From NCBI GenBank assembly GCA_017434295.1, contig JAFRFO010000085.1, forward strand, positions 1 through 39,349: a stretch of DNA of 39,349 nucleotides. Reading direction: 5' to 3'. The notes under the pieces are model-generated. The model made no database searches and had not been told where the DNA came from. It saw only the letters and a program-made list of their open reading frames with translations. The stretch's first letter is position 1, and each line of letters begins with the position of its first letter. Position numbers and translations under genes: made by a program. This document shows, piece by piece, positions 7,593 to 10,011 of this stretch. This DNA comes from Clostridia bacterium (GTDB lineage Bacteria; Bacillota; Clostridia; TANB77; CAG-508).

Positions 7593-7976
7593 TCAAACAT
7601 TAATTGATATAGTTTCTCCCAAAACAAACGAAAGCCATGGTTCTTCAAGCCATCTCCATTTATTACATGGATATTCAATAGTTAATGGTCCATAAATTTT
7701 TTGATATTTATCTTTTAATTCTTTACACTCTTTGCAATATCTATTATGAAGACAAAGTGCTTTTTCATCATCTGAATGAGTATCTAAATAAAGAGCAAGT
7801 TCATTTATTGCAAAATCATATGCCATAATTTGGTGCAACAATTTTTCTCTTTTTTCACAATTATTTCTATCATTATCCATTACATCCATTACAGGCATAT
7901 TCCCTGTAACATAATTTTCACTTTCATAATTGTTGTTATCATTGCAAGGGCAATTATTATTATTCATATTCATCAT
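7593..7976 (-). CDS. cotJB: spore coat protein CotJB
   Basis: A 127-residue CotJB family protein. The conserved part begins near residue 43 (REKLLHQIMAYDFAINELALYLDTH) and runs through YCKECKELKDKYQKIYGPLTIEYP to the tryptophan-rich end (KWRWLEEPW). The first 40 residues are an unusual Asn/Asp-rich extension with Cys-Pro-Cys. It overlaps cotJA by the ATGA arrangement and ends in UGA. In Bacillus, cotJA-B-C are made in the mother cell and assembled in the inner coat. Here a terminator follows directly and no cotJC (manganese catalase) is present. Confidence 0.9.
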   Translation of the reverse strand: MMNMNNNNCPCNDNNNYESENYVTGNMPVMDVMDNDRNNCEKREKLLHQIMAYDFAINELALYLDTHSDDEKALCLHNRYCKECKELKDKYQKIYGPLTIEYPCNKWRWLEEPWLSFVLGETISINV

Positions 7977-8329
7977 TTGTTACACCCCTCTCCTATTTTA
8001 TTTGTTGCCTCTAAATATCTGTTTACTTCCATAGATTGACATGGTCTGTAAGGACTAACTAATTCAGGGAATATTGTTCCCATTTTTAATCCAACATCTG
8101 GTTTAAATGTTTTATCCATATATTGAATAGGAACATAACTTTGAGCTAACATTGGATCTTCTGGAAATACACTATTATATTCATCATTAAAGCCACAACT
8201 ACAGTTTTCATTATACATATCATTATTGCATTGATTTATATTTTGACATGCAGTTTCTAATACATCATTTTGCATATCATTATCACAATTATTATTCATA
8301 CAATAACATTTTTGGTATCTTCCAAACAT
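7973..8329 (-). CDS. cotJA: spore coat-associated protein CotJA
   Basis: A 118-residue CotJA family protein. The C-terminal half is the conserved part: LAQSYVPIQYMDKTFKP, then GLKMGTIFPELVSPYRP, then EVNRYLEATNKIGEGC. The N-terminal 55 residues are a Cys- and Asn-rich extension (about 8 cysteines), longer than in Bacillus CotJA and possibly suited to cross-linking. Start ATG at 8329 has AAAAAGGAGG upstream. A mother-cell type -10 lies at 8357-8367. The gene ends in UGA, overlapping cotJB. Confidence 0.9.
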   Translation of the reverse strand: MFGRYQKCYCMNNNCDNDMQNDVLETACQNINQCNNDMYNENCSCGFNDEYNSVFPEDPMLAQSYVPIQYMDKTFKPDVGLKMGTIFPELVSPYRPCQSMEVNRYLEATNKIGEGCNK

Positions 8330-8356
8330 ACAAATTTCCTCCTTTTTGCATTTTAC

Positions 8357-8367
8357 TATATTGTATG
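8357..8367 (-). promoter_or_regulatory. possible mother-cell sigma (E/K) promoter of cotJ
   Basis: The minus strand reads CATACAATATA, fitting both the sigma-E -10 (CATACAAT) and the sigma-K -10 (CATAnnnTA). An AC dinucleotide 17 bases upstream fits the sigma-K -35. No sigma-E -35 is clear. Confidence 0.45.
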
Positions 8368-8413
8368 AATAGTTAATATAATAAGTTACAATAATAGATT
8401 TATTTGTTTTTCA

Positions 8414-8508
8414 AAAAGGAAAAGTATTAATTTCAAAATCCGAGTAATCGACCAAACGAACGACAAGTTGCAACACCAAGGCTTTTAGAAATTAATACTT
8501 TTCCTTTT
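8414..8508 (-). ncRNA. long perfect hairpin with GC-rich loop below pyk
   Basis: Arms of 21 bp pair without mismatch (8414-8434 with 8488-8508), enclosing a 53-base loop whose core of about 43 bases is near 50 percent GC in an AT-rich window. On the minus strand the distal arm runs into five Ts, so it can act as the pyk terminator. The loop is too long and compositionally too different to be only that. Read in one minus-strand frame the loop encodes SLGVATCRSFGRLLGF followed by UGA, but no start with a ribosome site is seen. It may be a small RNA, an attenuator or a small dispersed repeat. Confidence 0.5.
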
Positions 8509-8533
8509 ATAAATTATTTAAATATGAAATTAA

Positions 8534-9979
8534 CTAAATTTTTAACATTCCGCAGAATATTTTATTTTGTGAATTATTTTCTAATATTTTAGCTCCTCCA
8601 GAGATTACAACTAAATCTCCTTCTTCTACTAAACAATCAGCTTTAATTTTTTCAATTCCTTTTTGAATTGTTTCTTCAATTGAAGATGCACCTTCAACTA
8701 AAATTGGGCAAACATTAACAGATACTGATAATTGGTTAAATGTTTTCTCATCATCTGTTATAGCAAATATTGGGCATTTGCAAGGGAAACCTGCTAATTT
8801 TCTAATTGAATCTCCACTTTTTGTATATGCTACAATTCCAGCTGCATCCATATGTTGAGCTGTAGAAATTGTTGTATAAGCTATATTAGCTTCTATATCT
8901 TTTAAATCATAAGCACTAGCATATCTATTAAATCTTCTCCAATAGTTTGTTTCTGCTTCAATTGCTTTAGATATTCTAGACATTACGTTTACACATTCAA
9001 CTGGATAATTTCCCATTGCACATTCTCCAGAAAGCATTATTGCACCTGTTTTGTCATATACTGCATTTGCAACGTCACTAACTTCAGCTCTTGTAGGTCT
9101 TGGGTTAGTTGTCATTGATTCTAACATTTGTGTAGCTGTTATAACTGGTTTACCTACTTGATTACATCTTTTTATAAATCTTTTTTGAACAATTGGAACT
9201 TGTTCCATTGGAATTTCAACACCCATATCTCCACGAGCTACCATTATACCATCTGATAATTCAAGTATTTCTTCAAAATTATCTATACCTTCTTGGTTTT
9301 CTATTTTAGAAATAATTTTTACTCTTTCTCCACCATTTTCGTTTAATAATTTTCTTAATGCTTGTACATCTGATGCTTTTCTTACGAAAGATGCTGCAAT
9401 GTAGTCAAATCCTCTTTTAATACCTTCTGTTATATCATCTATATCTTTTTGAGTTAAAGCTGGTAAATCTACTTTTACTCCAGGAACGTTAACTGTTTTT
9501 CTACTTCCTAATCTTCCTGTATTTAATGCTTTACAAACAATGTCTTTATCTTTTATTTCTGTAATTTCAAATTCTAAAGCTCCATCATCTACTAATAATT
9601 TTCCACCTACAGAAACATCTTTATATAATTCTTTATAACTAATTGATACTTTTGTATTATCTCCTGTTATTTCGTCATTTACAAATGTAAATTCCTGTCC
9701 TTCTTCTATTGTCATTTTTTCATTTTTACCTGTAATTAGCATTCCTGTTCTAATTTCAGGTCCTTTTGTGTCTAATAATAAAGCAACTGGTCTATTTAAT
9801 TTTTTTCTAACATTTTTAATGTTTTCGATTTTTTGACCATTTTCTTCATATCCTCCATGAGAAAAATTGATTCTTGTTACATTTAGCCCTGCATTCATTA
9901 ATTTCTCTAGCATTTCTTCACTTTCACTTGCAGGTCCTATTGTTCCTACTATTTTTGTTTTTCTTAGTACTTTTTTCAT
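8534..9979 (-). CDS. pyk: pyruvate kinase
   Basis: Converts phosphoenolpyruvate and ADP to pyruvate and ATP in glycolysis. The 481-residue protein begins KKVLRKTKIVGTIGPASES and has the kinase signature region IISKIENQEGIDNFEEIL with the active-site lysine, the MVARGDMGVE metal-binding stretch, and KPVITATQMLESM. It is the short form, lacking the extra C-terminal PEP-utiliser domain found in many Firmicutes. ATG at 9979 is chosen over an in-frame TTG at 10003 because GGGAGG lies just before it and the -10 box lies 33 bases upstream. It is monocistronic. Confidence 0.96.
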   Translation of the reverse strand: MKKVLRKTKIVGTIGPASESEEMLEKLMNAGLNVTRINFSHGGYEENGQKIENIKNVRKKLNRPVALLLDTKGPEIRTGMLITGKNEKMTIEEGQEFTFVNDEITGDNTKVSISYKELYKDVSVGGKLLVDDGALEFEITEIKDKDIVCKALNTGRLGSRKTVNVPGVKVDLPALTQKDIDDITEGIKRGFDYIAASFVRKASDVQALRKLLNENGGERVKIISKIENQEGIDNFEEILELSDGIMVARGDMGVEIPMEQVPIVQKRFIKRCNQVGKPVITATQMLESMTTNPRPTRAEVSDVANAVYDKTGAIMLSGECAMGNYPVECVNVMSRISKAIEAETNYWRRFNRYASAYDLKDIEANIAYTTISTAQHMDAAGIVAYTKSGDSIRKLAGFPCKCPIFAITDDEKTFNQLSVSVNVCPILVEGASSIEETIQKGIEKIKADCLVEEGDLVVISGGAKILENNSQNKIFCGMLKI

Positions 9980-10011
9980 TTTAAAATTCCTCCCTTTTTT
10001 CAACAGATAAT

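Follow-up and report, generated by a model that had tools for sequence, protein, structure and literature searches.

The hairpin at positions 8414-8508 of the window (the whole 39,349-nucleotide stretch of Clostridia bacterium DNA that was analysed) belongs to a hitherto uncatalogued family of small, mobile hairpins in DNA, found in the genomes of a single taxonomic family of uncultured Clostridia, often in dozens of copies. The window copy is a relic of this family, degenerate and internally deleted, with a stem that is still perfect. We consider it likely that it derives from non-autonomous, MITE-like elements that are linked in part to IS66. Computational comparisons establish the family, its structure, the transposon-type ends with target duplications of the relatives and the IS66 transposons with the same ends. 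In the architecture that we propose, a full member would consist of a conserved cloverleaf core within a long palindromic stem rich in AT, with terminal inverted repeats of the transposon type on the outside.

The window hairpin and its family

The two arms of the outer stem (8414-8434 and 8488-8508, + strand) are exact reverse complements at 21 of 21 positions, in agreement with the perfect 21-bp hairpin claimed by an earlier note made from the sequence, and the RNA fold of 8405-8515 (-28.2 kcal/mol, z -6.4) was equalled or bettered by none of 200 shuffles. The same note described the stem as AT-only, which is slightly off (AAAAGGAAAAGTATTAATTTC has 4 G/C among its 21 bases, 19%), and the loop as 53 bases long with a core near 50% GC, which holds: the loop (8435-8487, + strand) has 53 nt and 41.5% GC, and its core (8440-8482) reaches 51% in a window of 25.8% GC. 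The core can indeed be read as a peptide in one frame (KSLGVATCRSFGRLLGF*, - strand). This frame stays open in full copies (ILGVATSRFKKLVCKLLQSHSLRSFGRLRGF), making annotated spurious peptides plausible, such as the similar ones that the note suggests for other clostridial genomes; tblastn returned none in phage and plasmid records and the exact core peptide had no match in the literature searched. On one side of the hairpin lies pyk (PK domain; 8534-10003, - strand) and on the other cotJA (7973-8329, - strand). The spore-coat genes cotJA and cotJB (7593-8329, - strand) are directly downstream of the element.

The window loop matches full family copies as a shortened version of their core. Read against the family alignment A3 (below), it begins with the P2 mini-hairpin (8442-8449, + strand), which is GA-GTAA-TC in the window copy versus GC-GTAA-GC in most other copies, a double change that keeps the pair. 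There follows the 5′ half of P3 (ACCAAACGAACGA; 8451-8463, + strand), the 3′ half of which is deleted by comparison with L002 and L028. The internal deletion junction (8463-8464), placed by comparison with full copies and by the partial model match, is succeeded by what sequence comparison identifies as the remaining 3′ arm of P4 and the conserved 3′ linker (AAGTTGC..ACACCAAGG; 8464-8481, + strand). Relative to full copies, about 45 nt of the core are missing, namely the 3′ half of P3 and the 5′ arm and loop of P4, and the family model matches only 83 bases of the window copy for its 127 positions (42.2 bits).

A search of the window's own genome with the hairpin recovered further copies of the left arm and loop, and full copies proved longer than the window copy, running from the stem through AAATCCGCGTAAGCGACCAAACGAACGAAGTGAGTGCGATTGGAGCAAC..GTTGCGACACCAAGGATTT to the other stem arm. 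A covariance model built from 12 copies (core model of 127 positions) has 30 matches in this genome at E<1e-5, with five weaker matches at E<=1 set aside, and matches 108 of 210 genomes of the same genus at E<=0.001; at most 16 candidates were scored per genome in this survey, and the per-genome copy numbers are lower bounds. Matches were also obtained in 89 of 287 genomes of an order sample and 7 of 391 of a class sample, and all matching genomes of the genus, order and class samples fall within the window's taxonomic family. An exact pattern search returned nine contigs, all of them from MAGs named uncultured Clostridium, Clostridia or Eubacteriales, and three core patterns found no match in IMG/VR. 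Rfam has no match in the window, none above the gathering threshold in sets of nine and six loci and nothing credible at relaxed thresholds; a hit of MIR7993 to an AT palindrome (47.6 of 100 bits) was taken as chance. Among the open-licence papers listed in literature searches, we recognised no IS66 MITE or cloverleaf repeat comparable to this family. Full elements measure 167-252 bp between their ends, carry no gene of their own and are multi-copy, as is typical of MITEs. The earlier note had named such an outcome beforehand, and its suggestion of a small mobile repeat is supported: the element recurs in many copies, in which the loop is conserved and the stems vary. Two of the analyses that it proposed, a search for copies and a covariance analysis of them, yielded the counts given here and the conserved cloverleaf core of 86 copies, respectively.

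Transposon-type ends and the link to IS66

The arms of copies in relatives continue outwards into ends of the transposon type. Flanking direct repeats of at least 8 bp accompany 24 of 59 copies outside the window's genome, versus about 19% with swapped flanks. The corresponding figures are 4/11 versus about 27% in genome G363, where the test is limited by unequal arm lengths, and 0/11 versus about 13% in G107; inspection of the G363 flanks by eye suggests more duplications, and the exact test identifies those of L115 and L118. Exact 8-bp duplications adjoin GTTAC/GTAAC ends at 7 of 23 element loci tested (L057, L062, L066, L073, L266, L115 and L118), i.e., the terminal inverted repeats and target-site duplications that characterise MITEs are present together in relatives.

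A search of six genomes for GTTAC-end patterns uncovered in G024 a 1,544-bp element with GTTACTGTTCAGCCTA at both ends and an 8-bp duplication, the interrupted gene of which is assigned by Pfam to the IS66 transposase family and also matches the NCBIfam IS66 model, below its cut-off. In this copy (L261), the gene consists of two open pieces. This IS66-family element and the MITE copy L266 have GTTACTGTTCAGCCT in common, each with its own 8-bp duplication. Across the sample, 11 of 31 IS66 loci (10 distinct, L294 repeating L261) display an 8-bp duplication together with inverted repeats that match at 14 or more of 16 positions, in every case with ends that start in GTTAC; among 59 control loci there was one comparable pair, not of the GTTAC type. 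Members with GTTAC-type ends, such as L266, accordingly have the ends and 8-bp duplications of IS66-derived elements, and we predict that the IS66 transposase moves these elements in trans in genomes that use IS66.

Other members end in TTCAAGTTTCGA (L064, L078 and L097) or CAATGCTGTCAAC (L077 and L109), with 9-12-bp repeats; given members with these ends or with GGGGTCGGTCC arrays, IS66 is not the sole mover. The cores of L073 (GTTAC ends) and L078 (TTCAAGTTTCGA ends) are 96% identical, and the core therefore crosses end types. Genome G166 offers several related configurations: palindromes of 62-64 bp that consist of two GTTAC ends only, without the long stem or core (L262 and L263); a GTTAC-ended element with a similar stem and an unrelated core (GAAAAGACCC..; L264, contig G166:C75), which suggests core replacement; and a TTCAAGTTTCGACTTTTTGC end near a GTTAC end (L267, contig G166:C8), which places both end types in one genome. 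At three places in G363 (L116, L120 and L124), a second repeat (TCGCTAAGCTACCTGAGGAAATGATTTTAA..) adjoins the element ends.

In the window's own genome, flanking duplications of at least 8 bp occur in 2 of 25 copies versus about 14% of swapped controls, which is no excess over chance, and the window copy has no recognisable transposon end. L040 alone retains the eroded remains of a GTTAC-type end, beside a duplication that agrees at 7 of 8 positions (by eye), such that a transposon origin of the copies in this genome would follow from their family membership and this one eroded copy. The genome has no IS66 match, and we posit that its family members could be an old, largely immobile residue. 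In the genus, IS66 was found in 35 of 204 genomes, including G024. As a predictor of the element, its presence shows no association (18 of the 35 IS66-positive genomes carry the element versus 108/210 overall), and because draft assemblies may lose repeated elements, both the absence and the non-association weigh little either way.

The cloverleaf core and the matched stem

Alignment A3 comprises 86 full copies. It omits the shortened copies L001 and L055, the weak copies L138 and L139, copies that are long or bear inserts in the P4 loop (L050, L053, L054, L094, L144 and L244), repeats of the same locus or genome (L086-L092), the broken L072, the second copy in L147 and most of the near-identical copies of G363 and G107. 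Extra nested hairpins lie within the P4 loop of L050, L053, L054 and L244. With P2, P3 and P4 as drawn, 95.6% of the cells in A3 are paired, double changes occur in 12 of 20 pairs, and the covariation score is 0.255 versus 0.133 for shuffled alignments, none of 500 of which attained it, and no more than 0.057 with partners slid. This covariation shows that the conserved core is a cloverleaf with a four-way junction. An alternative pairing of P3 is weaker (10 pairs with double changes and a score of 0.219); the double-change counts of the chosen and alternative pairings both still count column 27 as a P2 pair. Within P3, two nearly invariant G-A oppositions (82/86 and 80/86 copies) stand amid covarying pairs. 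The pairing of column 27 within P2 was dropped, as the C/T change at this column goes together with a G/A change in the stem (most copies have C-G, and 17 have T-A), which makes P2 a two-pair GC hairpin. Its loops are GTAA in 61 copies, GCA in 12, GAAA in 4, and GGTA, GTA and ATAA in 3 each. P2 is of the GNA/GNNA-loop type, and DNA mini-hairpins with at least two G-C pairs and such loops are described as exceptionally stable (PMC4686876).

The arms of the stem are matched within a copy and differ between copies. A copy's own right arm is the best partner of its left arm in 76 of the 86 cases, with a mean local arm score of 48.8 versus 18.8 for swapped arms, and in the window's genome, arm identity is 95% within copies (25 copies) and 81% between them (300 pairs). 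The arm pairs of the 86 copies comprise 2323 Watson-Crick, 14 G-T, 19 A-C and 51 other combinations; complementarity has therefore been kept while the sequence drifted, without a wobble bias. Related copies (L062/L066/L080 and L064/L086/L087) have arm sequences in common that drift with compensation, and the inner stem is therefore part of the element. In a yeast study with much shorter spacers, template switching is described as homogenising the arms of inverted repeats and inverting the spacer between them (PMC8604942). We posit that template switching between the arms during replication could likewise keep these stems perfect despite drift and now and then invert the core. The core is inverted at an orthologous site between G107 and G087 (L128 versus L224), and at the L033 site between the window's genome and G154.

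An RNA helix is expected to favour G-T over A-C. Core mismatches comprise 23 G-T and 25 A-C, and we read the lack of a G-T excess in core or arms, with moderate weight, as pointing to DNA rather than RNA. A more far-reaching proposal, to which we give a low probability, sees in the core a module of single-stranded DNA with a function of its own, which would move from one transposon or palindrome chassis to another, swap, invert and re-enter them by template switching, and promote the copying of whichever palindrome carries it.

Conversely, the cloverleaf might act as RNA, i.e., the family might be a structured non-coding RNA, regulatory or self-processing, the gene of which became a dispersed repeat. 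Such an RNA would be compatible with the strong covariation of P3 and P4, the conserved single-stranded linkers, GTAA loops that fit the RNA GNRA class and the proximity of most copies to genes. We nevertheless consider it unlikely, given the G-T/A-C balance of core and arms, the core inversions at two orthologous sites, the three-base GCA loops (12/86 copies) that fit stable DNA mini-hairpins, the want of any Rfam match and a mixed orientation to neighbouring genes. Sixty-seven copies (one locus entered twice, as L064 and L091) were placed against open frames, which are mechanical predictions: where both neighbours point the same way, 29 copies oppose them and 17 follow them; convergent frames flank 9 copies and divergent frames 4, and the other 8 are found at the end of a contig.

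Insertion sites and comparison with known repeats

Nine other sites in the window's genome were compared with 24 orthologous loci. The element is clearly absent in G062 and G151 at L033, in G023 at L031 and L042, in G062 and G154 at L034, in G151 at L048 and L051 and in G154 at L029; the remaining loci are partial, hold other sequence or are uninformative. At three sites, relatives have a hairpin that is related but differs in its core or carries it inverted: at L033 in G154 (inverted) and in G023, at L042 in G062, and at L034 in G023. This suggests that cores may be exchanged at old sites or that these are insertion hot spots.

At the pyk 3′ end, too, all seven relatives examined lack the element; most of them have terminator-like hairpins there (read by eye), and the hairpin of G062 (AAAAAAGAAAAATGTTAAC..) resembles the window arms and their right flank. 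In the window, the start of a short T-run (TTTTT; 8409-8413, - strand), read off the sequence as a candidate terminator tail, directly follows the stem in the direction of pyk transcription. These features would also suit a bidirectional terminator maintained by the host, with a foreign core inserted in its loop and with the variable stems of the family being pre-existing terminators. We deem this improbable in view of the common, compensating drift of related arms, by which the inner stem belongs to the element, the arms of relatives that end in transposon ends with target duplications, and the clean empty sites at which no terminator was disrupted (L033 in G062 and L042 in G023). A scan of 8250-8700 found no canonical intrinsic terminator (short GC-containing stem, loop of 3-8 and T-run), and the window loop has 53 nt as opposed to 3-8, although the T-run is present. 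On the preferred reading of a mobile-element relic, it is plausible that the window copy is a candidate pyk terminator or 3′-end hairpin where relatives have an ordinary terminator, a role that it may have acquired secondarily. The small RNA that the earlier note had envisaged at the pyk 3′ end fares less well: the core is oriented opposite to pyk, neighbour orientation is mixed across the family, the seven relatives lack the element at this site and G-T does not exceed A-C.

It is very improbable that these are REPIN-like elements moved by a Y1 (RAYT) transposase, for although Y1 transposases occur in 178 of 204 genomes of the genus and mirrored GGGGTCGGTCC arrays, which we take to resemble REP sequences, surround the core in G107 and G087, most copies are without mirrored arrays, and the window's genome (30 copies, no Y1 match) as well as G177, G062, G202 and G172 carry the element without a Y1 match, ruling out Y1 as a universal mover. 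At L126-L134 of G107 and at L105 and L224 of G087, mirrored tandem GGGGTCGGTCCCTTTTT arrays lengthen the palindrome on both sides of the core and differ between these close genomes.

The family is thus large, with matches in 108 of the 210 genomes sampled from the window's genus and none in Rfam, and its structured core persists beyond any one transposon type and passes between types. Should this core work as single-stranded DNA in folded form, it would provide a natural system for the copying, correction and inversion of palindromes in bacteria. Spurious short peptides in the genomes that carry the family, and some of the breaks in their assemblies, may also be due to it.

Among known systems, the family resembles IS66-derived MITEs in being short and gene-less, with GTTAC-type inverted repeats like those of the IS66 elements of the genus and with 8-bp duplications, the length reported for IS66 elements (PMC3281130); it departs from them in its interior, an unrelated palindrome with a conserved cloverleaf, and in that this core is also found inside other ends. 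With REPINs, i.e., paired REP sequences moved by RAYT (treated in PMC3116915), it shares the inverted REP-like units around a loop in G107 and G087, whereas most family copies are devoid of such units and several carrier genomes of a Y1 match. By description, it can be likened to ERIC, which is grouped with small mobile repeats (PMC2229807), and to similar intergenic palindromes, as a small repeat between genes. The pneumococcal BOX, RUP and SPRITE repeats are described as small and intergenic, typically below 200 bp and with MITE features, SPRITE being terminator-like with an 18-bp stem near gene 3′ ends (PMC3049150). As far as that description goes, they differ in genus and structure from the present family, which is set apart by a stem sequence particular to each copy and a core that forms a four-way junction.
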